From: an uncultured Alistipes sp.
GTDB taxonomy: Bacteria > Bacteroidota > Bacteroidia > Bacteroidales > Rikenellaceae
Length of the DNA stretch: 64,000 nucleotides
Assembly: GCA_944321765.1 (NCBI GenBank)
Contig: CALUMQ010000028.1
Coordinates: 1-64,000, forward strand
Direction of reading: 5' to 3'
The notes beneath the pieces were generated by a model. That model was not told the origin of the DNA and did no database searches. It was given only the letters and a program-made list of their open reading frames with translations. Shown here piece after piece: positions 6,786-45,888 of the stretch (position 1 is its first letter; each line of letters opens with the position of its first letter). The position numbers were made by a program, and so were the translations under genes.

Positions 6786-7580
6786 CTATTCGTCGGCCCG
6801 CTTCGATTCGTAGGGCTTGATGATGCCCCGCTTCGAGGTGCGGATGAACTCCACGAGCAGATCGCGTTCGCGGCTCTGCGGAACCAGCCGCTCCACTTCG
6901 TCACACCCGTTCAGGTAGTTGAGTCCGCTCTGGAAGAGGATGCGGCAGGCCTCGTGAATTTCGGCGATGCGTTCGGGAGAGAATCCCCGGCGCGAAAGCC
7001 CCACCTTGTTGATGCCGGCGAAACGCAGCGATTCGTTGCGCACGATGACATAGGGCGGGAGATCCTGGCTGAGGAGCGCGCCGCCCTGCACCATCGAGTG
7101 TTCGCCGATGTGGACCCACTGGTGTACGGCGGCATGGCCACCGATAACCACCCAGTCTCCGACATGCACTTCTCCGGCCAGCGAGACGCGGTTGGCGATG
7201 ACGCAGCGGTCTCCCACGATACAGTCGTGAGCCACGTGCACGTAAGCCATCAGCAGGTTGTGCGATCCCACGCGGGTAGTTCCCGTCGAGGCGGTACCGC
7301 GGCTGATGGTGACATATTCGCGGATGTCGTTGTCGTCGCCGATTTCACAAGTGGTCTTTTCGCCCGCGAACTTCAGGTCCTGGGGCAGGCAGGAGATCGA
7401 TGCTGCGGTGTGGATCTTGCATCGTTTGCCGATGCGGGCTCCGTCGTGGATGACGGCTCCGGGGCCGATCCAGCAACCGTCGCCGATCACCACGTCTGCG
7501 GCGATGTAGGCAAAGGGATCTATCGTGACATCGTTTCCGATTTTTGCATCGGGATGAACATAGGCGAGAGGACTGATCAT
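6786..7580 (-). CDS. lpxA: acyl-ACP--UDP-N-acetylglucosamine O-acyltransferase
   Basis: 264 residues, usual length. LpxA catalyses the first step of lipid A synthesis, moving a 3-hydroxyacyl chain from ACP to UDP-GlcNAc in the cytosol. The N-terminal two thirds are hexapeptide repeats of a left-handed beta-helix (for example AKIGNDVTIDPFAYI and VVIGDGCWIGPGAVI). The catalytic histidine lies in MAYVHVAHDC, and the C-terminus is helical. Its start overlaps the lpxC-fabZ stop by 4 nt, so the two are translationally coupled. Confidence 0.97.
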   Translation of the reverse strand: MISPLAYVHPDAKIGNDVTIDPFAYIAADVVIGDGCWIGPGAVIHDGARIGKRCKIHTAASISCLPQDLKFAGEKTTCEIGDDNDIREYVTISRGTASTGTTRVGSHNLLMAYVHVAHDCIVGDRCVIANRVSLAGEVHVGDWVVIGGHAAVHQWVHIGEHSMVQGGALLSQDLPPYVIVRNESLRFAGINKVGLSRRGFSPERIAEIHEACRILFQSGLNYLNGCDEVERLVPQSRERDLLVEFIRTSKRGIIKPYESKRADE

Positions 7581-8971
7581 TTCTTCGTATGTTTAGAGAC
7601 CTGGGCCATCATGATGGCCTCACAGGCGAGTGTTTCTCCGACAAAAGCCTTTCCTTCGACGACGGCCACGCCGCGGCGGATGGGCTCCAGCAGATGGATT
7701 TCGAATTGCAGCGTGTCTCCGGGGACGACCTTGCGCTTGAACTTCACGCTGTCGATCTTCATGAAGTAGGTCGAGTAGTCTTCGGGGTCTTTTATCGTGC
7801 TGAGCACCAGGATGCCGCTGCACTGGGCCATGGCCTCGACGATCAGTACGCCGGGCATGATGGGCTCATTGGGGAAGTGTCCCACGAAGAAGGGCTCGTT
7901 CATCGTGACGTTCTTGATGCCGGCCACGTCGGTGCCGTCGCAGTAGAAGATACGGTCGACGAGCAGGAAAGGCGGACGGTGGGGCAGCATGCGGCGGATG
8001 TCGTTGATGTCGTAGAGCGCCGGTTTGCGGCAGTCGTAGGTGAAGCGGGGCTTCTCGCCGGCCTTGCGGATGGCGTGCTTGAGCTGCTTCATGAACTCCG
8101 TGTTGGCGAAGTGCCCGGGGCGGGTGGCCCACACGCGGCCCCTGATGCGCACGCCCAACAGGGCGAAATCGCCGAGCAGGTCGAGGAGCTTGTGGCGCGC
8201 CAGTTCGTTGTTGCAGCGCAGCTCGAGGTTGTTCAGATAGCCTGCCTTGATTTCGATATCGGGTTTGTTGAAGATCTTTTTCAGATGCTCGATCTGCTCT
8301 TCGGGCACGGGGTTCTCGACCACGACGATGGCGTTGTCCAGATCGCCGCCCTTGATGAGGTTCATCTTGATGAGCGGTTCGAGTTCGTGCAGGAAGACGA
8401 ACGTACGGCACGGAGCGATCTTGTCGGCATAGTTGTCGCCGGGGTTGAACGTGGCGTACTGGTTCCCGATGACCTTCGAGTTGTAGTCGACGTGTACCGA
8501 GACGGAGAACTCGTCGTCGGGGTAGAGGATGATCGCCACGCCCTTTTCGGGAATCGTGTAGACCATTTTTTCGGTGACGTGGTAGAAGGCGCGCTCGGCC
8601 GGCTGGTCGACGAGCCCCGTGGCTGTGATCGCTTCGGCATAGGCGCGGGCCGACCCGTCCATGATGGGGGTTTCGGGGCCGTCGATGTCGATGATTGCGT
8701 TGTCCACGCCGAGGGTCCAGAGAGCCGACATGACGTGTTCGATGGTCGAGACGCGGTGTCCTCCGACCTCGATGGTTGTTCCGCGCGAGGTGTCTACGAC
8801 GTTGTCACACAGGGCGGGAATGAGCGGATGTCCTTCGATGTCGATGCGTCGGAAGATGATTCCTGTATTGGGGTCGGCCGGATTTACGGTCATGGTCACG
8901 TGGACGCCCGTATGAAGACCCTTACCCGAAAAGGAGATCGGGGCCTTGAGCGTTTGTTGTTTCGTAAACAT
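7577..8971 (-). CDS. lpxC-fabZ: bifunctional UDP-3-O-acyl-GlcNAc deacetylase / 3-hydroxyacyl-ACP dehydratase (LpxC-FabZ fusion)
   Basis: 464 residues from [18 protein letters not shown]. The LpxC part (about residues 1-300) removes acetate from the LpxA product, the committed step of lipid A synthesis. It shows the zinc-ligand region [11 protein letters not shown] and the DFALLG and HFANTEF stretches. The FabZ part (about 315-464) dehydrates 3-hydroxyacyl-ACP and has [14 protein letters not shown] and [20 protein letters not shown] with its catalytic His and Glu. The fusion is typical of Bacteroidota. An ATG at 8986 is possible, but homologues I recall begin close to the chosen start. Confidence 0.95.
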
Positions 8972-8996
8972 TGGCGAAAGTGTCATATATTTCGTG

Positions 8997-9004
8997 CAAA
9001 GGTA
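8997..9004 (-). promoter_or_regulatory. -7 box of lpxC-fabZ-lpxA
   Basis: TACCTTTG on the minus strand, 25 nt before the chosen lpxC start. No convincing -33 element at the usual distance. It faces away from the box at 9027-9034, forming a compact divergent promoter. Confidence 0.55.
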
Positions 9005-9026
9005 TTAAATTTTCGCTAAAAAATGC

Positions 9027-9034
9027 TACCTTTG
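9027..9034 (+). promoter_or_regulatory. -7 box of the TonB-like gene
   Basis: TACCTTTG lies 22 nt before the ATG at 9057. No clear -33 box. Confidence 0.55.
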
Positions 9035-9056
9035 CTCAAAATTCTGAACGTCGATC

Positions 9057-9857
9057 ATGACCGAGAACCATAGCGACAAGGAGCCTCGTCCGGTGCGGCG
9101 GCCGCGTATCCGCCTGCCTTTCGAAAATCGCAGGGAGGATGCCGGAAGCTGGGCTTACGACCATCGTATCGGGCTGTGTGTGACTTTGATAGCCTATCTT
9201 GTCCTGATGATCGTCTTTGTTTCGTCGAAGATTGTCATCGGACGTCGAGCGAGCCAGCAGGGAATGTATATCGACCTGCAGGAGCTGGCCGATCTGGAGC
9301 AGACGCGCGACCGTCTGCAGGAGGAGTTGCAGCGCAGCCGCCAGGAGGAGATCGACTGGCGGAGCATCCGCAACCGGGCGTCGAACGAGAATGCCTCCGA
9401 CGAGCGCCTGCGCGACGACCGGGGAACGAATACCGCGGCGTTGAACGATGCGGCGCAGCAGGCACGGGCGCAGATGCAGGCCAACCGCGAGGCTTACGAA
9501 CAGGGCCTTGCCGAGGAGCGGGCGATACTTCAGCGGCGGGGAACGGCCGACGGCGAGGAACGCCGGGACGTCAAGGTCAAGGGCCGTGTGACGGTCTCCT
9601 TCTCGTTGACCAATCCCGTGCGGACGTCGCGCTATCTCGAAGTCCCGGCCTACCTGTGCGAGGGTGGCGGCGAGGTGGTCGTGTCGATCACCGTCAACCG
9701 GGCGGGAGAGGTGACCGGTGCCCGTGTTGCGGAGGGAGGCGACGACTGCATGCGCGAATCGGCGCTGCGGGCCGCGCGCAACTCGGTGTTCAACATCGAC
9801 GAATCGGCTCCGGCCAAACAGTCCGGAACGATCACCTACATCTTCATCCCGCAGTAG
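9057..9857 (+). CDS. TonB family protein with coiled-coil spacer
   Basis: 266 residues. A cytosolic N-terminus of about 40 residues is followed by one membrane helix (IGLCVTLIAYLVLMIVF). The periplasmic part has a charged, Glu/Arg/Gln-rich, probably coiled-coil stretch (about 75-185) in place of the usual Pro-rich spacer. A TonB_C-like domain follows with GEVVVSITVNRAGEVTGA and ends in TITYIFIPQ. TonB proteins pass proton-motive energy to outer-membrane receptors. No ExbB/ExbD is adjacent; the nearest pair is 8 kb away. It is divergent from lpxC. The receptor partner is unknown. Confidence 0.8.
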   Translation: MTENHSDKEPRPVRRPRIRLPFENRREDAGSWAYDHRIGLCVTLIAYLVLMIVFVSSKIVIGRRASQQGMYIDLQELADLEQTRDRLQEELQRSRQEEIDWRSIRNRASNENASDERLRDDRGTNTAALNDAAQQARAQMQANREAYEQGLAEERAILQRRGTADGEERRDVKVKGRVTVSFSLTNPVRTSRYLEVPAYLCEGGGEVVVSITVNRAGEVTGARVAEGGDDCMRESALRAARNSVFNIDESAPAKQSGTITYIFIPQ

Positions 9858-38344: not shown

Positions 38345-39739
38345 TCAGCGCTGCCGGGGGGTACGGTTGTTGAAGCGGTACCCGACGCCGAGCATCAGGA
38401 AGTTCGGGAGGTGGAAGTCGCGCAGGCTGTATCCGATGTGCAGGTACGAGCTGTGGGTCATGGCGAGCTTGAGGGTGAGCATCTGATAGAAGGCCTTCAG
38501 TTCGCCGCCTTTGTGCAGGACGTTCCCGCCGAGCCCGATTCCCACCGAGAAGTGGGGCATGACGAATTCCGCCCGGGCCGAGAGTCCCAGGGCGATCTGG
38601 CGGTCGAATCCGGGGTTCTCGACGATGATCTCGGGCGAGTCGCCTACGCCGACGATCTGGTCGGCCAACACGACGTTCGTGCTGCCGTCATAGACGCCGT
38701 CCAGCGAGACGCCCGCGCGGAACTTGTATCCGAAGTTGTACATCGGGGCGAAGCTGATTCCCACGACCGGGAACGCATCGGCTACGGCATACTGCCCTCC
38801 GTCGATCTCGATGCCGCGCCTGCGCCACGAGCCGAAGAGTGTGAGGTCGTAGCTCACGTGACGCGGAAAGGCGGGGCAGATCTCCTCCCGAAGCTCCTTC
38901 TTGACCCGGGAGTTGAAGTCATAGGTCACCCCGGCCCGCAGGCCCAGCGAGTTGAGTCCTGCGTTGGGGAATTTGGTGTTCCCGTTCGAGAAGTGGGTCA
39001 GTGCAATGCCGGCCGTAAGGTGGACGCTGCGGTGCAGCTGCCAGTTGAGGAGGAGGTCTATATTGACCAGGGCATTGAGCCGCGATCCTGTCATGACGTT
39101 CTCCGGATTGTGCAACTCGTCATAGGGCTTCCAACCGAACGAGAGCCCGAGATTCCATTCGTAGTCGAGCGACAGCCGGGGTGCGAGCCGGGCGATGCGT
39201 GCCCCTTGAAAGAGATATACGGCGACGGGACTTCCCAACTCGCGGGTATTCCCGAAGTCGTACCAGGCGATGCCCACTCCCTGATAGGCGCCTCCGTAGA
39301 TCCGGTCGGCGGACGATCCGGGACGGTATCGGAACGAGTAGCGCAGATGTCCCGACAGCGAGCGATTGATGGGGCGTGCCGCGGCGTTGGCGCCCTTGAG
39401 AAAGGGGTTGGTCGGGAAGATGTATTCCGGGCGGAACTCCGCTCCGAGACTGTGCAGATAGCGCGACGCCCGCGACTCCTGCGCCTTGTTTTGCGACATT
39501 GACGCGGCCTCCGACCTTGCAGTCCATTGTGTAGAGGAGTCCTTCGCAAATGTTTGGGCAGCCCGGTATCCGGCCTTGAATCCGTCGTCATATCCGGCCC
39601 GGTACCCCTCCGTGTAGCTGTCGGACTGCTCCCGTGACAGCGAATCGGCGAGTTGTGCGGGCGGAGCTGCGACGATGCTTCCGAACCATAAAAGTCCTGC
39701 TGCGGCGGAAAAATATCGTATGATGAGTCGATGCATCAT
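38345..39739 (-). CDS. acyloxyacyl hydrolase/PagL-like outer membrane protein
   Basis: 464 residues from MMHRLIIRYFSAAAGLLWFG, a signal peptide cleaved near VAAPP. After a short repeat-like stretch (YTEGYRAGYDDGFKAGYRAA), the rest alternates like beta-barrel strands and ends RFNNRTPRQR. The segment ALTHFSNGNTKFPNAGLN matches the PagL lipid A 3-O-deacylase active-site region with its H-x-S pair. The Glu expected 14 residues after the His reads as Asn. It may deacylate lipid A or be a structural relative. The open frame starts at 39805, but the signal peptide favours 39739. Confidence 0.72.
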   Translation of the reverse strand: MMHRLIIRYFSAAAGLLWFGSIVAAPPAQLADSLSREQSDSYTEGYRAGYDDGFKAGYRAAQTFAKDSSTQWTARSEAASMSQNKAQESRASRYLHSLGAEFRPEYIFPTNPFLKGANAAARPINRSLSGHLRYSFRYRPGSSADRIYGGAYQGVGIAWYDFGNTRELGSPVAVYLFQGARIARLAPRLSLDYEWNLGLSFGWKPYDELHNPENVMTGSRLNALVNIDLLLNWQLHRSVHLTAGIALTHFSNGNTKFPNAGLNSLGLRAGVTYDFNSRVKKELREEICPAFPRHVSYDLTLFGSWRRRGIEIDGGQYAVADAFPVVGISFAPMYNFGYKFRAGVSLDGVYDGSTNVVLADQIVGVGDSPEIIVENPGFDRQIALGLSARAEFVMPHFSVGIGLGGNVLHKGGELKAFYQMLTLKLAMTHSSYLHIGYSLRDFHLPNFLMLGVGYRFNNRTPRQR

Positions 39740-39925
39740 CTCGAAGAGGCTTTCATTTTGACGTCGAAGATATGAAAATTTTTCCGAAGAGCCATCATTC
39801 TTCATGGGAAAAAGAGCCTGAAAACGGTACCTTCACAACTCTTCACGATTGTCCGGGCTATGCCCGGATCGGTCCCCGGAGGATGAATTTTTGCCCGTTG
39901 GCTTTCCGAATCCGAAAATAATTTC

Positions 39926-39933
39926 TACCTTTG
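39926..39933 (+). promoter_or_regulatory. -7 box of the cobalamin riboswitch operon
   Basis: TACCTTTG lies just before the riboswitch aptamer; a TTGG at 39898-39901 is 24 nt upstream, longer than ideal. Confidence 0.55.
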
Positions 39934-39940
39934 CGGCCGA

Positions 39941-40112
39941 TTACGGTTTCCGCCGACGTGCTGCACACGTCCGGATGAAAAGGGAATCGGGTGCAAATCC
40001 CGAACAGTCCCGCTGCTGTGAAGCTCCGCAACCACCTTTCGAATTCCATCGGTCACTGACTCCGGTCGGGAAGGCCTCGGAAGGGGAGCAAGTCAGAAGA
40101 CCTGCCGCAATC
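39941..40112 (+). promoter_or_regulatory. cobalamin (adenosylcobalamin-type) riboswitch
   Basis: The hallmark core GGGAATCGGGTGCAAATCCC (39982-40001) is followed by ACAGTCCCGCTGCTGTGA and, at the 3' side, the B12 box AGTCAGAAGACCTGCCGC near 40091-40108. This order and spacing are those of the cobalamin riboswitch. When B12 is plentiful such elements lower expression of the genes downstream. Aptamer ends are approximate, as the outer stem was not folded. Confidence 0.92.
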
Positions 40113-40372
40113 GTTTTGAATGTTTAATCATCCTCTGGGGTTAGGGTGCTTAATGCGATGAAAAGATTTCAGCACAATACACTGCACTCCGTGTGAGTGA
40201 CGCTCCGCAGCACTGCTGCCGGATGTGTTTCTGCGTGTTTCCGTGGCTCCGCACGTCGGGGAACGGCACATTCGGAATTTGCTTTCCGGAGGCGTATATG
40301 CTGTTATGCTGTCGGCCGTTCTTTGTGATGGTCGTAGTGAACCCGGACGATGACAAACAAAAGCAAACCGAT
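40113..40372 (+). other. long leader between the cobalamin aptamer and the first gene
   Basis: About 260 nt with no convincing gene. The frame of the first lipoprotein is open back to 40193, but that extension (Cys-rich, many hydrophobics) does not look like a protein start. I see no clear terminator hairpin with a T run, so the expression platform is unresolved; it may act on translation or through Rho. Confidence 0.5.
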
Positions 40373-41416
40373 ATGAAACGAACCATGAACGAATTCTCGA
40401 AGATGTGCCTTCTGGTACTTCTCGGCACGGGCCTGGGCGCCTGCAACAAAAACGAAACCATCCCCGCTCCTGAAGGCAATGATCCGACACCCTATGTAAC
40501 CGCAGTGCTGGACTACCGTCCGGCCGTGGGTCAGTTCACCAACCTGCTGCCGCGCTACGAGGCGGGCGATACGCAGCAGACGATGAATGCCAAGGCGCTC
40601 GCGCTGCTTGCGGCCCAGAGCCCGGTGACGCTGGGCGGCTACGGCGGCTATATCGTCGTGGGCTTCGACCACCGTATCGAGAACAAGGCGGGGCTGTGCG
40701 ACTTCCGGGTGCTGGGCAACAGTTTCTATTCGAACAGCAATCCGGCCGCCGGTGCCCCTGCCGGAGGGAGCAGCGAGCCGGGTATCATCCAGGTGGCCTG
40801 CGATCTCAACGGCAACGGACTTCCCGACGATGACGAGTGGTACGAGATAGCGGGCAGCGCCCATCGCCATCCGGACTCCGAGGCGTGGTACGGCCGGGCC
40901 GCGGCAGCCGGTAACGACGTAGCGCTTTATACGGATTACACCATTACTTACCATCGGCCCTCGGCCGAACCCGATGCCGCCACCGAGGAGTATATCCGTT
41001 GGGAGGACAACCAGGGCAATTCGGGCTACAAGGCCAAGAACAGTTTCCATCTGCAGTCCTACTATCCGCAGTGGATCGATGCCGGGGAGCTGACCTTCCG
41101 CGGGACGCGGCTTCCGCAGAACGGCGTCTACGAACAGGGTGAAACCATGAGCCTGTACGTGCTCTACAAGTTCCGCTTCGGCTATGCCGACAATGCCCTC
41201 AATACGGAGCAGGATTCGGCCATAGATATCGACTGGGCGGTTGATGCCGAAGGCCGGGCCGTATCGCTGCCGGGCGTTGACTTCATCCGTATCTATACGG
41301 GTGTCAATCAGGAGAACGGTCCCATAGGCGAGTGCTCGACGGAGATCGTCCAGGTCGAGGACCTGCACCTGATGGGCGAAACCATCGCCTCCCGCGATCC
41401 CGAACAGACCGAATAG
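40373..41416 (+). CDS. cell-surface lipoprotein of cobalamin uptake loci
   Basis: 347 residues from MKRTMNEFSKMCLLVLLG, with the lipobox LGAC and so lipid-anchored. The mature part begins with a Pro/Asn linker and carries GGYGGYIVVGFDHRIENKAG, FRVLGNSFYSNSN and DLNGNGLPDDDEWYEIAG, a family I recall in B12-uptake loci of Bacteroides. DLNGNGLPDDDE resembles a calcium-binding loop. It is first behind the cobalamin riboswitch, with two BtuG-like lipoproteins after it. A role in capturing corrinoids at the surface is inferred from context. Confidence 0.78.
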   Translation: MKRTMNEFSKMCLLVLLGTGLGACNKNETIPAPEGNDPTPYVTAVLDYRPAVGQFTNLLPRYEAGDTQQTMNAKALALLAAQSPVTLGGYGGYIVVGFDHRIENKAGLCDFRVLGNSFYSNSNPAAGAPAGGSSEPGIIQVACDLNGNGLPDDDEWYEIAGSAHRHPDSEAWYGRAAAAGNDVALYTDYTITYHRPSAEPDAATEEYIRWEDNQGNSGYKAKNSFHLQSYYPQWIDAGELTFRGTRLPQNGVYEQGETMSLYVLYKFRFGYADNALNTEQDSAIDIDWAVDAEGRAVSLPGVDFIRIYTGVNQENGPIGECSTEIVQVEDLHLMGETIASRDPEQTE

Positions 41417-41473
41417 ACGTCTGTTGCGGGCATTCACGCCGATCCAATTATTAATCATATTTTTTTGAAGTAC

Positions 41474-42934
41474 ATGAAACGAATTTTACGCTTCGCCGCC
41501 GTAGTAGCGGTGATCGGTCTGCTGGCCACGTCGTGCAGCAAGAAAGGAGAAGAGGGACCGTCGCCCCAGGCGGGATCGCTGGAACTGACCCGGAACGAGG
41601 GGAGCGCCCCTTATCTGGTGGTGGTAGGCCAACAACTCGAAATTCCCTATGCCGCGGAGCATGTCGGACAGCTGACGTGTTCGACGGCCGAAGGGTGGAC
41701 GATCGCCCTCTCCGAGACGGACGGCAAGGTGACACTGACGCCGTCGCTCGACGCCGAACAGCTTGCCTCGGCCTTTACGCTGACGCTCTCGGGTGTGGAC
41801 GAGAAGGGTGAGAAAGTCTCCTCGTCGGTAGAGGTTCACCTGCTGGATTTCGCCGACCCGAAGGGAGTCTTCGTCCTCAACGAGGGCAACATGACCACCG
41901 AGAACGGTTCGCTGACCTACATTTCGGCCAACGGCGATATCGTGGCCGATGCCTACAAGCTGGTCAACGGCACCGAACTGGGCAACGTCTGCCAGGACCT
42001 CTATATCCACGACGGGAAGATCTACATCATCTCGCAGAACGGCGGGACGAATGCCACGGGATCGAGCTTCCGGAACGACGGCATGCTGGTCATTGCCGAT
42101 GCCCGGACGCTGAAGCTCGAGAAGGGCTTCACGGCCGAGGATCTTTCGGCGTTGTCGTGGCCCACACATATTGCCGTACTCGACGAGCAGCACGTCTACA
42201 TCCGTACCGACAGCGATAACGGCGGAACGACGCAGCAGGGCGTCTGGCGGCTCGACACGACGACCGGATCGCTGACCTTCGTGGAGAACACTGCGGGAGC
42301 TCCGAAGAACCGCATGGCCGTGATGGGCAACAAGGTCTATACGACGCGCGGCAGCGGCATTGTCTATATTGTGGAGATCTCGGCCGATTCGGATACGGGC
42401 CGAAAGATCAGTCTTCCGTTCCGTTCGCAGATCCTCAACGTCAACAGCGGAGACAATGCCGGAGGTATTCAGGCTTCGGACGACGGACAACTCTGGATCA
42501 TGGGTTCCGGCTCCGGCAAGAACTACATTCACAAATACAATCTCTCCGACGGATCGTATGTCGAGAAGGCATTGGCTGCTACGCCGAAGGTAGCTTACAA
42601 CTGTCCTTTTGCCGCTTCGGGCAACAAGATCTATTATGCCAGCAATACGGCCGTTCGTTGTTTCGATTTCGATGCCGCGACAACCGAGGAGGCTGATCGG
42701 CAGCTCTTCGACGTGTACGATTTCGATGCCGTTTCGGGCAATACGCTCTACAACGGCCTGGGCCTGCATCCCGTAACGGGTGATCTTTACGTCAATTCGA
42801 TCGGAGATTATACGAACTACGCCACCGACAACATGATCTGGGTGTTTTCTCCCTCCTCGACGTCGCAGCCTCAGGCCCGCTACAAGGGCTATACGCGTTT
42901 CCCGGCGGGTTTCTATTTCCCGGCGGCCTTCTGA
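41474..42934 (+). CDS. DUF5074/YncE-like beta-propeller lipoprotein (BtuG-like)
   Basis: 486 residues from the ATG at 41474; the frame opens with TTG at 41465. The signal MKRILRFAAVVAVIGLLATSC ends in a lipobox. A first beta-sandwich-like domain of about 110 residues precedes a repeated propeller pattern (KGVFVLNEGNMTTENGSLTYI, GNVCQDLYIHDGKIYIIS, PTHIAVLDEQHVYIRT). BtuG proteins of Bacteroides are surface lipoproteins with this fold that bind B12 very tightly and hand it to BtuB. The riboswitch upstream supports the same role. No BtuB is in this operon. Confidence 0.8.
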   Translation: MKRILRFAAVVAVIGLLATSCSKKGEEGPSPQAGSLELTRNEGSAPYLVVVGQQLEIPYAAEHVGQLTCSTAEGWTIALSETDGKVTLTPSLDAEQLASAFTLTLSGVDEKGEKVSSSVEVHLLDFADPKGVFVLNEGNMTTENGSLTYISANGDIVADAYKLVNGTELGNVCQDLYIHDGKIYIISQNGGTNATGSSFRNDGMLVIADARTLKLEKGFTAEDLSALSWPTHIAVLDEQHVYIRTDSDNGGTTQQGVWRLDTTTGSLTFVENTAGAPKNRMAVMGNKVYTTRGSGIVYIVEISADSDTGRKISLPFRSQILNVNSGDNAGGIQASDDGQLWIMGSGSGKNYIHKYNLSDGSYVEKALAATPKVAYNCPFAASGNKIYYASNTAVRCFDFDAATTEEADRQLFDVYDFDAVSGNTLYNGLGLHPVTGDLYVNSIGDYTNYATDNMIWVFSPSSTSQPQARYKGYTRFPAGFYFPAAF

Positions 42935-42945
42935 TAAACCGATAA

Positions 42946-44223
42946 ATGATGAAAGAGATGAAAAAATACGGTTTCAAGTTCATGCTTTTGTCGACGCTGT
43001 GCCTTGCGGCATGCTCCACCGACAAGGGCGAGGATACGCCGGGTCCCGGAGCCGGGGACGGCAAAACCGGCTATGCCGATCCGCAAGGGGTGTTCATCGT
43101 CAACGAGGGGCCGGATGTCTATGCCTGCGGTTCGCTGGTCTACCTGGCACCCGACGGTACGGCTTCGGAATCGGATCCCTACGAGGCGGTCAACCATTCG
43201 CGCATGGGCTACATGGCGCAGGACATGTACCTCTATGGCGGCAACTATTACCTGCTGTGCCAGAACGAAGTGTATAAAGACGGGACGTCGGAGGGCGACG
43301 GGCAGCTGATTGTCGTGAATGCCGAGACGCTGACGAAGGTCGCCGCATATGATGCCGACGTGTTGCGGACCGACATGTCGCAGACTGATGAGGATGAGAA
43401 TATTCTGGGCGATCCAACGAACGTCGTGGTGCTCGACGAGCACAATGTCTTCATCCGCGACAACCGCGGCATGGTGCGCTTCGACTGTTCGACGAAGCAG
43501 ATGATCCGTCTCGAGGGGACCTACCGCTGGGCCAACAACGGGGGCAACCTCGCCGGATGCCTCCATCCGCAGGGAATGGTTGTCGTGAATGACCGGGTTT
43601 ACGTAGCCGCCGGCGGCTGGTCGATGGCCACCCCCGAAGCCCGTTTTGGCATCTACGAATTCACCCGTGGGGCCACGGGGATCAACCGGCAGCTGAGTAT
43701 CAGCAACAGCAGCAAGATCAGCGGGCTGTGCGCCGATGGCGGCTACCTGTGGGTTGCCACGACGATCTATGAAGATCTGATCGGCGGCACGACGCGCGGT
43801 GAGAATGCCATCTACAAGGTCGATCCCGAAACGCTGACCATTGTCGATACCTATCCGATCCGCAAGGGGGATCTGTCGTTGACCGATCGCACCTCGGCGA
43901 TCACCGTGCTGGGAGACAATATCTACTATACGGGTGGCACGACGAGCATCTATCGTTTCAATACGGCCGATAATACCACGACGCTGCTGGGTGATGCCTC
44001 GACGTTTGATCCCGATGCCCGGGTGCTCTACAACAATATTGTGGTGAATCCTGCGAACGGTTACATCTACATGACGACTATTGGCGAATACAGTTCCACG
44101 GGCTATACGACGAACAACATCCTGGTGTTCGATGTCAGCGGTGATCAGTTGCAGCTGGTAGCCAACTACAAGGGGCTGACCTGTTTCCCTGCGGGGATTG
44201 TCTGCGTGTCGCGATTCGAGTGA
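42946..44223 (+). CDS. second DUF5074/YncE-like beta-propeller lipoprotein (BtuG-like)
   Basis: 425 residues; the ATG at 42958 (MKKYGFKFMLLSTLCLAAC) is an equally good start with the lipobox LAAC. It lacks the extra N-terminal domain of the preceding gene and goes straight into the propeller pattern (QGVFIVNEGPDVYACGSLVYL, MAQDMYLYGGNYYLL, PTNVVVLDEHNVFIRD). It appears to be a diverged paralogue. It is the last gene of the cobalamin operon, 11 nt after its neighbour, and a long terminator follows. Confidence 0.8.
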   Translation: MMKEMKKYGFKFMLLSTLCLAACSTDKGEDTPGPGAGDGKTGYADPQGVFIVNEGPDVYACGSLVYLAPDGTASESDPYEAVNHSRMGYMAQDMYLYGGNYYLLCQNEVYKDGTSEGDGQLIVVNAETLTKVAAYDADVLRTDMSQTDEDENILGDPTNVVVLDEHNVFIRDNRGMVRFDCSTKQMIRLEGTYRWANNGGNLAGCLHPQGMVVVNDRVYVAAGGWSMATPEARFGIYEFTRGATGINRQLSISNSSKISGLCADGGYLWVATTIYEDLIGGTTRGENAIYKVDPETLTIVDTYPIRKGDLSLTDRTSAITVLGDNIYYTGGTTSIYRFNTADNTTTLLGDASTFDPDARVLYNNIVVNPANGYIYMTTIGEYSSTGYTTNNILVFDVSGDQLQLVANYKGLTCFPAGIVCVSRFE

Positions 44224-44247
44224 TGCGCATTCCCTGTCGGGAAGCCT

Positions 44248-44290
44248 AAAAGGAAGCGGGAGAACCTCGGAGGTTCTCCCGCTTCCTTTT
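44248..44290 (+). terminator. terminator of the cobalamin lipoprotein operon
   Basis: A 20-bp perfect stem (44248-44267 with 44271-44290) has a 3-nt loop and ends in TTTT. Its symmetrical A/T ends allow use by the convergent arginine decarboxylase gene too. Confidence 0.9.
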
Positions 44291-44333: not shown

Positions 44334-45728
44334 CTAATACCCGAGGATGCGCAGCATCGAACGGTAGGACTGCTCCTTGGCGAACAACCTTGTATAGTAT
44401 TCGTTGTTCGACTTGTCGCGGTCGATGACGATATGCTTCGGCGCGGGGATCAGACAATGCTGGATGCCTCCGAAACCTCCGAGTGACTCCTGATAGGCTC
44501 CCGTGTGGAAGAATCCGATGTATTGGGTGTTTCCGGCCTCGAGTTTCGGGAGGAAGATGGCGTTGGAGTGGCACTCCGAGTTGTAGAAGTCCTCGCTGTC
44601 GCAGGTGAGGCCTCCGAGCAGCACGCGCTGATACTCCTTGTCCCAGTTGTTGATGGCCAGCATGATGTAGCGCTGGTTGATGCCCCACGTGTCGGGCAGG
44701 GTAGTGATAAACGACGAGTCGATCATGTACCAGTTCTCGCGGTCGTTCTGCTGCTTCTGGTTGACGATCGAGTAGAGTGCGGCGCCGCTTTCGCCCACGG
44801 TGAAGGATCCGAATTCGGTGAAGATGTTGGGTTCCTCGATGCCGTTTCTCTGGCAGATGTTCTTGATCTGTGCGACGATCTCCTCGGTCAGGTATTCGTA
44901 GTCGTACTCGAAGTTCAGGGAGTTCTTGATGGGAAATCCTCCGCCGATGTTGAGGCTGTCGAGCTCGGGACAGATGGCCTTCAGCTCGCAGTAGACGTTC
45001 ATGCACTTCGACAGCTCGTTCCAGTAGTAGGCCGTGTCCTTGATGCCGGTATTGATGAAGAAGTGGAGCATTTTGAGCTGAAACTTCTTGCTGTTCTTGA
45101 TCTTGGCCTTGTAGAAGTCCACGATGTCGTTATAGCGGATGCCCAGGCGCGAGGTGTAGAAGTCGAACTTCGGCTCCTCCTCGCAGGCGATGCGTATTCC
45201 GACCTTGCACTTCTTGGTGAAGGCATCCTCGAAGAGGTCGATCTCCTCCTTGTTGTCGAGCACCGGAATCGTGTTGGTGAATCCGTCATTGACGAGCTGG
45301 GCGATGTTTTCGACGTACTGCGGACGTTTGAAACCGTTGCAGATGATGTATCGGTCCTTGTCGATGATGCCACCGTCATAGAGTGCATTGATGATGTGGA
45401 TGTCGTATGCCGACGACGTTTCGAGGTGGATATCGTTCTTCATGGCCTCCTCGAGCACGAAGGAGAAGTGGCTCGACTTGGTGCAGTAGCAGTAGTTGTA
45501 CGACCCCTTGTAGTCGACCTTCGCCATGGCCACATTGAACATCCGCTTGGCGCGGTTGATCTGCTGGGAGATCTTGGGCAGGTAGGTGATCTTGAGCGGC
45601 GTTCCGTATTGCTTGATCAACTCCATGAGGGGGATGTCGTGGAAATTCAGCTCATTGTCCTCGACGGAGAATTCATCCTGAGGGAAGTCGAACGACTGTT
45701 CGATCAGATCGATGTACTTGTCTTTCAT
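44334..45728 (-). CDS. speA: arginine decarboxylase (fold III PLP enzyme, Bacteroidota type)
   Basis: 464 residues from MKDKYIDLIEQSFDFPQDEF, the start I recall for Bacteroides homologues; the frame is open to 45824. It converts arginine to agmatine for polyamine synthesis. The barrel with the PLP lysine lies in YNYCYCTKSSHF, followed by ETSSAYDIHII, the glycine-rich phosphate site LNIGGGFPIKN, and the late CDSEDFY motif with the second-subunit cysteine. It is distant from E. coli SpeA and shorter, so another amino acid substrate is possible. Confidence 0.85.
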   Translation of the reverse strand: MKDKYIDLIEQSFDFPQDEFSVEDNELNFHDIPLMELIKQYGTPLKITYLPKISQQINRAKRMFNVAMAKVDYKGSYNYCYCTKSSHFSFVLEEAMKNDIHLETSSAYDIHIINALYDGGIIDKDRYIICNGFKRPQYVENIAQLVNDGFTNTIPVLDNKEEIDLFEDAFTKKCKVGIRIACEEEPKFDFYTSRLGIRYNDIVDFYKAKIKNSKKFQLKMLHFFINTGIKDTAYYWNELSKCMNVYCELKAICPELDSLNIGGGFPIKNSLNFEYDYEYLTEEIVAQIKNICQRNGIEEPNIFTEFGSFTVGESGAALYSIVNQKQQNDRENWYMIDSSFITTLPDTWGINQRYIMLAINNWDKEYQRVLLGGLTCDSEDFYNSECHSNAIFLPKLEAGNTQYIGFFHTGAYQESLGGFGGIQHCLIPAPKHIVIDRDKSNNEYYTRLFAKEQSYRSMLRILGY

Positions 45729-45888
45729 GGCTCGTTGGCGAAGTTTTCTGCAATCCGGCTCGGCTACATGACGGAAATTTGATCGAAGTAGCTCGATCGG
45801 ATTGTCTGGATTTTCGGAATGCAAAGCAAGTGAATATTTTTCGTATAACCAACATTTTGCTTCGATATTTTGAAAAACCGGGACATCT

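Follow-up and report, generated by a model that had tools for sequence, protein, structure and literature searches.

How can an operon for the capture of vitamin B12 (cobalamin) at the cell surface be of use to a bacterium if it encodes no transporter? This question is raised by a locus of an uncultured Alistipes sp. (assembly GCA_944321765.1, contig CALUMQ010000028.1), of which positions 1 to 64,000 were analyzed (hereafter the window, meaning this whole 64-kb stretch). A sequence-only reading of the window had described a cobalamin riboswitch followed by three surface lipoprotein genes and a terminator, forming a closed unit without BtuB, BtuF, BtuC, or BtuD. This layout was borne out, since the riboswitch matched RF00174 at 100.9 bits, three lipoprotein open reading frames (ORFs) follow it on the same strand up to a terminator hairpin, and neither ORFs nor sequence matches placed btuB, btuF, btuC, or btuD within the three-gene unit. 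The same layout is found in G543, which belongs to the same genus. No btuB was found in the same transcript, and the pair of btuB and btuG that marks a BtuBG transport locus is missing from the operon. The unit is real and conserved, and we explain it as a form, without btuB, of an operon type that is already known. We consider it probable that it is a capture-only cobamide operon, derived from a five-gene operon and kept to feed a BtuBG transporter encoded elsewhere.

The riboswitch aptamer lies at 39927..40123 on the forward strand, where the RF00174 covariance match spans the full model (1-189 of 189; gathering cut-off 31.5 bits, E 4.5e-24) and is the sole above-gathering RNA family match within the window. 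Gene 1 (P1; 40373..41416, forward strand; 347 amino acids (aa), Cys24, mature net charge -27), previously described as a B12-locus lipoprotein, is by its sequence matches a lipoprotein with one BtuH domain. Specifically, it matched the BtuH domain of the BtuG1/BtuGH chain of Bacteroides thetaiotaomicron (B. theta; PDB 8blw_B, residues 378-661; E 1.6e-65) and the BtuH2 structure 7biz_A (E 1.3e-29), and had no match in Pfam. BtuH2 contacts B12 through Q333, N399, F401, H476, Y510, W511, W577, and L578 (Putnam et al. 2022, PMC8941943; cited here, like PMC12751083 and PMC10404256, from excerpts of the text). With this numbering transferred by hand onto the alignment, the Q, N, F, and H are identical in gene 1, W511 and L578 are conservatively replaced by Tyr and Ile, and Y510 and W577 are substituted by Leu and Pro.

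Genes 2 (P2; 41474..42934, forward strand; 486 aa, Cys21, mature net charge -22) and 3 (P3; 42946..44223, forward strand; 425 aa, Cys23, mature net charge -25) both matched the DUF5074 family (PF16819; E 7.5e-42 and 2.6e-34, respectively). The two propellers differ, as had been noted: P3 is a propeller alone, while P2 carries an N-terminal strand-rich domain, probably of an immunoglobulin (Ig)/PKD-like type (sub-threshold PKD_2 match, E 0.027). AlphaFold2, run on the window proteins and on proteins of related loci, gave a mean predicted local distance difference test (pLDDT) score of 84.8 and a predicted template modeling (pTM) score of 0.87 for gene 2, and 77.7 and 0.83 for gene 3. The best Foldseek matches were BtuG chains for both, namely B12-bound BtuG2 (8bai_B, E 2.6e-14) for P2 and B12-bound BT2095 (8okv_D, E 3.8e-15) for P3, the latter followed by BtuK1 (9s6c_A, E 1.7e-11). 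The earlier description of two BtuG-like propellers was thus right as to predicted fold and wrong as to orthology. A branch with 99/96 support in a tree of 39 rows set the 11 rows of BtuG apart from all others, P2 and P3 included, and relatives have both of them beside a true BtuG, which rules them out as BtuG orthologues; the models and the tree together identify them as BtuG-like in fold only. Neither is adjacent to btuB in the unit, and in relatives they come after btuB-btuG-btuH. Profile alignments of P2 and P3 to BtuG2 have gaps at the contact positions W194, Y239, W272, Y316, and Y335.

An identification of P2 and P3 as simply BtuK1 and BtuK2 was not upheld either, because another branch of the same tree (91/87) places the BtuK rows on the BtuG side and sets both against P2, P3, and further DUF5074 proteins from B12 loci; given a long-branch warning, which concerns BtuK2 above all, this BtuK separation is not decisive. 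One of the eight P2 rows (L149) was separate from the other seven. P2 could be aligned over its full length to a BtuK1 orthologue (E 1.2e-15) that has both a PKD-like N-terminal domain and a DUF5074 propeller, where P3 has the propeller only, and the P2 profile matched BtuK1 9s6c (3.8e-8). The latter structure was not among the top 50 Foldseek matches of P2 and was not reached by the P3 profile at E 0.01. Proteins of approximately 630-740 aa with a P2-like C-terminal part were also found in B12 loci L085 and L088-L092; in the two tested (L085 and L090), a DUF4988 domain stands ahead of the DUF5074 propeller. A literature search for links between DUF5074 and B12 gave none.

If the unit has no transporter of its own, the rest of the genome should tell where B12 can enter. 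The assembly (G000; 2.31 Mb, 40 contigs, 88.6% complete) was searched for btuB and riboswitches, as the sequence-only reading had proposed, and contains one BtuB, retrieved by both single-query and profile searches, and four cobalamin riboswitches including that of the window. The second riboswitch, on another contig, precedes BtuG and this BtuB, and the BtuG is 79% identical to B. theta BtuG2. The only BtuH match of the assembly is the one in the window. Located at C35, with no riboswitch match, are a gene with a Peripla_BP_2 match (BtuF-like) and one that was judged BtuC-like by eye. Of the three units of the assembly that serve capture or transport, two encode nothing but surface proteins. 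Among the roles that had been suggested for the lipoproteins, the evidence most favors service to a distant BtuB, given the single BtuB on another contig and the position of the same genes behind btuB-btuG in relatives; a multi-protein surface trap is a possible role as well. The third riboswitch (L005, contig C19, 6731-6927) is followed by one DUF4465 (BtuJ-like) lipoprotein gene at 7178-7996, apparently alone, and this is apparently a second capture-only unit of the same genome. The fourth (L006, contig C29, 6805-6998) stands ahead of an anaerobic ribonucleotide reductase (NRDD) at 6952-9315.

An assembly error as the cause of the unit was ruled out by G543, which carries the same unit between the same two neighbors (protein identities 77, 67, and 78%). 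Within the family, P1 had a match in 105 of 150 genomes and P2, at E 1e-3, in 115 of 150, mostly weak matches to other propellers, and a BtuH fragment search retrieved 94 of 393 genomes of the order and, at E 1e-60, 49 of 119 Bacteroides genomes. The P3 search at E 1e-15 retrieved 17 of 268 family genomes, of which eight had strong matches (E up to 7e-51) adjoining P2. Four of these eight encode btuB-btuG-btuH-P2-P3, and four have no btuB-btuG there. Nine BtuH-P2-P3 loci were compared, i.e., the window, seven more from the 268 family genomes, and G405 of another family. A riboswitch was present upstream in all eight that were fetched. The btuB-btuG pair is missing from four of the nine (the window, G543, G046, and G059) and lies between riboswitch and P2 in the other five, with BtuG and BtuH fused in G405. 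Profile searches counted 1, 1, 1, and 2 BtuB in G000, G543, G046, and G059, respectively, and 2 in each of the other four family genomes. In G059, P2 (L128:11914-13034, forward strand) is divided into two ORFs, by either decay or a sequencing error.

Next, we asked how the btuB-less state arose. A tree built on the three proteins of 15 loci required three changes of btuB presence, and a single clade of the four btuB-less loci was rejected (approximately unbiased (AU) test, p 1.4e-7). The btuB-less loci belong to separate lineages: G046 is sister to G639 (93/96), G059 is sister to G645/G641 (100/98), and all three of these sisters have btuB. For the window and G543, the wider distribution suggests that btuB-btuG was lost, and the BtuB counts agree with loss. 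The four btuB-less loci were searched for remnants of btuB or btuG in their leaders, and none was found (best E 0.24). What remains is under purifying selection, as the ratio of nonsynonymous to synonymous substitution rates (dN/dS) between the window and G543 is 0.19, 0.25, and 0.14 for genes 1, 2, and 3 at a synonymous divergence (dS) of 0.85-0.95, and 0.19 for the PagL-like neighbor. These low ratios indicate that the three genes are being kept by selection. They also bear on the idea that the trio is a relic of the lost btuB-btuG that is decaying without function. The absence of btuB-btuG, the split P2 of G059, and the proline of gene 1 at the BtuH2 Trp577 position would be expected of such a relic, but all three ORFs are intact in the window and in G543 at that dN/dS and dS, aptamer and terminator hairpin are intact, and btuB-less units recur. 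We regard decay as improbable.

A capture-only operon that feeds a BtuBG encoded elsewhere would work as follows. Low intracellular cobalamin would lead the riboswitch to permit synthesis of the three acidic lipoproteins, an acidity shared by BtuG2 (net charge -18; PMC10404256). BtuH and the two DUF5074 propellers would be displayed at the cell surface, where they may bind B12, as the analogy to their relatives BtuH, BtuG, and BtuK1 suggests. Captured B12 might be handed over to the BtuG-BtuB complex of the other contig, which is encoded behind its own riboswitch, and a BtuFCD-type transporter would then move it across the inner membrane. The operon itself would stem from an ancestral btuB-btuG-btuH-P2-P3 operon that lost btuB-btuG, this direction of change being the likely one. 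In B. theta, BtuH2 formed no stable complex with BtuB2 or BtuG2, and the authors propose that proteins of different loci may interact, coordination of capture and transport being not known (Putnam et al., PMC8941943). A single BtuB and a separate, selected BtuH unit fit this cross-locus idea.

The same proteins could also act away from the transporter, on outer-membrane vesicles or by withholding B12 from competitors, like B. theta BtuJ and with delivery secondary. B. theta BtuK1, BtuK2, BtuH1, and BtuJ1 do occur in vesicles (PMC12751083), and the present genome has the BtuJ-like gene, apparently alone behind another riboswitch; uptake via vesicles, on the other hand, is tied to BtuJ1 and BtuJ2 (PMC12751083), and none of the three trio proteins has a DUF4465 match. 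We consider a vesicle or hoarding role unlikely. That the proteins bind different corrinoids, and thereby broaden the range of the single BtuBG, would agree with the differences of P2 and P3 from BtuG and from each other. In the published structures of BtuG2 (PMC10404256) and BtuH2 (PMC8941943), however, the protein barely touches the variable lower ligand or does not touch it at all, and we think a specificity set quite unlikely.

Several observations weigh against a capture-only operon that arose by loss and feeds a distant BtuBG. The window BtuH retains four of the eight published contact residues of BtuH2, and P2 and P3, being in neither the BtuG nor the BtuK clade, may not bind B12, for which B. 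theta BtuK2, which did not bind it (PMC12751083), is a precedent. At 88.6% completeness a second BtuB could be missing from the assembly, but G046, which is 99% complete, also has one. In both G543 and G046, the BtuB locus that remains has a BtuH-like gene ahead of btuG-btuB, so the trio is not their only BtuH source. In G059 the P2 frame is split, as decay predicts, and a second btuB operon lies approximately 8 kb from the trio on the same contig, so that hand-over there need not be distant. As to the evolutionary argument, the support for G046/G639 (93/96) is not starred, the btuB-less label shows no clustering on the tree beyond that of shuffled labels, 172 of 500 of which scored as low, and, with a long window/G543 branch and an unrooted tree, the three changes may equal one gain and two losses.

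To see how far such units extend in Bacteroidota, we examined the best 80 named loci from a BtuH-alignment scan, among which proportions are not frequencies. The arrangement btuB-btuG-btuH-P2-P3 was present in seven of them (L131, L138, L142, L146, L147, L148, and L150), with BtuG and BtuH in one ORF in L138 and L150. A further arrangement, btuB-btuG-btuH with a P2-like gene above 180 bits and no P3, was found in 11 of the 80; P2-like genes of 45-66 bits (e.g., L197) were left out of these counts. Riboswitches were tested for at the six of these 80 loci without btuB or btuG upstream of BtuH, leaving aside the contig-end loci L130, L132, L158, L178, L190, and L203. All six had a cobalamin riboswitch upstream of BtuH on the same strand with no btuB between (L143, Parabacteroides; L153, Pedobacter; L189 and L198, Flavobacterium; L208, Bacteroidales; L163, Bacteroides congonensis). 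In L163 the riboswitch, BtuH, and a P2-like gene are near a separate btuB-btuG pair on the opposite strand. The matched BtuH is separated from the riboswitch by a 549-aa ORF in L143 and by two ORFs, a weak BtuH-like and a BtuJ-like one, in L153. The Flavobacterium loci L189 and L198 (9614-14454) have a riboswitch, three successive BtuH-domain ORFs, and a weakly BtuJ-like ORF, and no btuB. Behind btuB-btuG in L087 (9832-11637, forward strand), a 601-aa ORF that contains both a BtuH domain and a stretch resembling BtuJ (DUF4465) is a possible BtuH-BtuJ fusion.

These loci lead to a more tentative proposal, which we hold as possible and somewhat short of even: transporter-less riboswitch operons for B12 capture may be a recurring, selected class in Bacteroidota that arises by repeated btuB-btuG loss, with BtuH and its companions serving any BtuBG encoded elsewhere, and P2 and P3 may be a further family of B12-handling propellers apart from BtuG and BtuK. 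Putnam et al. (2022, PMC8941943) place over 80% of btuH homologues in btuB-containing operons, so that btuH operons without btuB are already implied in print. The excerpts of that paper contain no layout, tree, or worked case of one, and we found no published description of a btuB-less capture class or of P2 and P3 in a search whose scope did not extend to supplements and the 2014 locus survey.

At 39926..39933 (forward strand) lies TACCTTTG, a Bacteroidota-type -7 promoter element according to sequence and leader alignment. The Bacteroidota -7 consensus is TAnnTTTG, which is found at the same place in seven of eight aligned leaders, the eighth (G022) having a terminal A. A minimum-energy hairpin follows the aptamer at 40124..40153 (forward strand) and is possibly the expression platform. 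Such a hairpin was folded in all eight aligned leaders, without a shuffle control, and is weakest in the window (-7.8 kcal/mol) and G543 (-7.1 kcal/mol). The hairpins of G046 and G059 are similar to those of btuB leaders, from which the hairpins of the window and G543 differ in sequence. Start codons and lipoprotein signals were picked by eye without a signal predictor; the chosen starts are ATG 40373, ATG 41474, and ATG 42946, and the ORF list has alternatives for gene 1 (GTG 40193) and gene 2 (TTG 41465). NCBIfam had no match for genes 1 and 2 and one weak, unrelated match for gene 3. The terminator hairpin stands at 44248..44290 (forward strand), as had been claimed, with a stem of 19 bp rather than 20 and a 5-nt loop, read by eye from the sequence. 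A consensus scan recovered just a 6-pair core there and, over the region, six sites against a shuffle mean of 6.4, i.e., no excess. Upstream, a divergent PagL-like gene (38345-39805, reverse strand; PagL domain E 4.4e-10) is retained beside the unit in G543 (72% identity by BLAST). The next ORF downstream, close to the terminator, is convergent (44334-45824, reverse strand) and is presumably decarboxylase-like.

What the unit offers is a natural case: the genome has a single BtuB and, apart from it, a BtuH-propeller unit under selection, and hand-over, if it occurs, has to cross loci. The case suggests that proteins of B12-catching kinds can work for a transporter whose genes lie at another place, and it points to P2 and P3 as two propeller families, so far unstudied, that could be assayed. 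For genome surveys it means that some of the B12 scavenging regulon is overlooked when the search starts from btuB.

Several known systems come close to the unit. The btuB-btuG-btuH-P2-P3 operons, e.g., those of Phocaeicola plebeius (L148) and an uncultured Alistipes (L142, probably the same locus as L124), have the same three genes in the same order; all five that were scanned for a riboswitch (L123-L126 and L129) have one upstream. The window differs from them in lacking btuB and btuG. BtuG2 and BtuG3 share the propeller lipoprotein fold with P2 and P3 but form their own clade (99/96) and are paired with BtuB, whereas P2 and P3 are outside this clade and co-occur with BtuG. Locus 1 of B. theta consists, in the excerpts of PMC12751083, of a riboswitch and btuK1-btuK2-btuH1, before an internal riboswitch and btuB1-btuGH-btuJ1. 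It resembles the window in having a riboswitch ahead of one BtuH and two lipoproteins with no transporter before the next riboswitch, and in a close Bacteroides relative (L218) the first lipoprotein combines a PKD_3 domain with a DUF5074 propeller. It differs in that btuB1 follows later in the locus, the order is K-K-H, and the window propellers are outside the BtuK clade in the tree.

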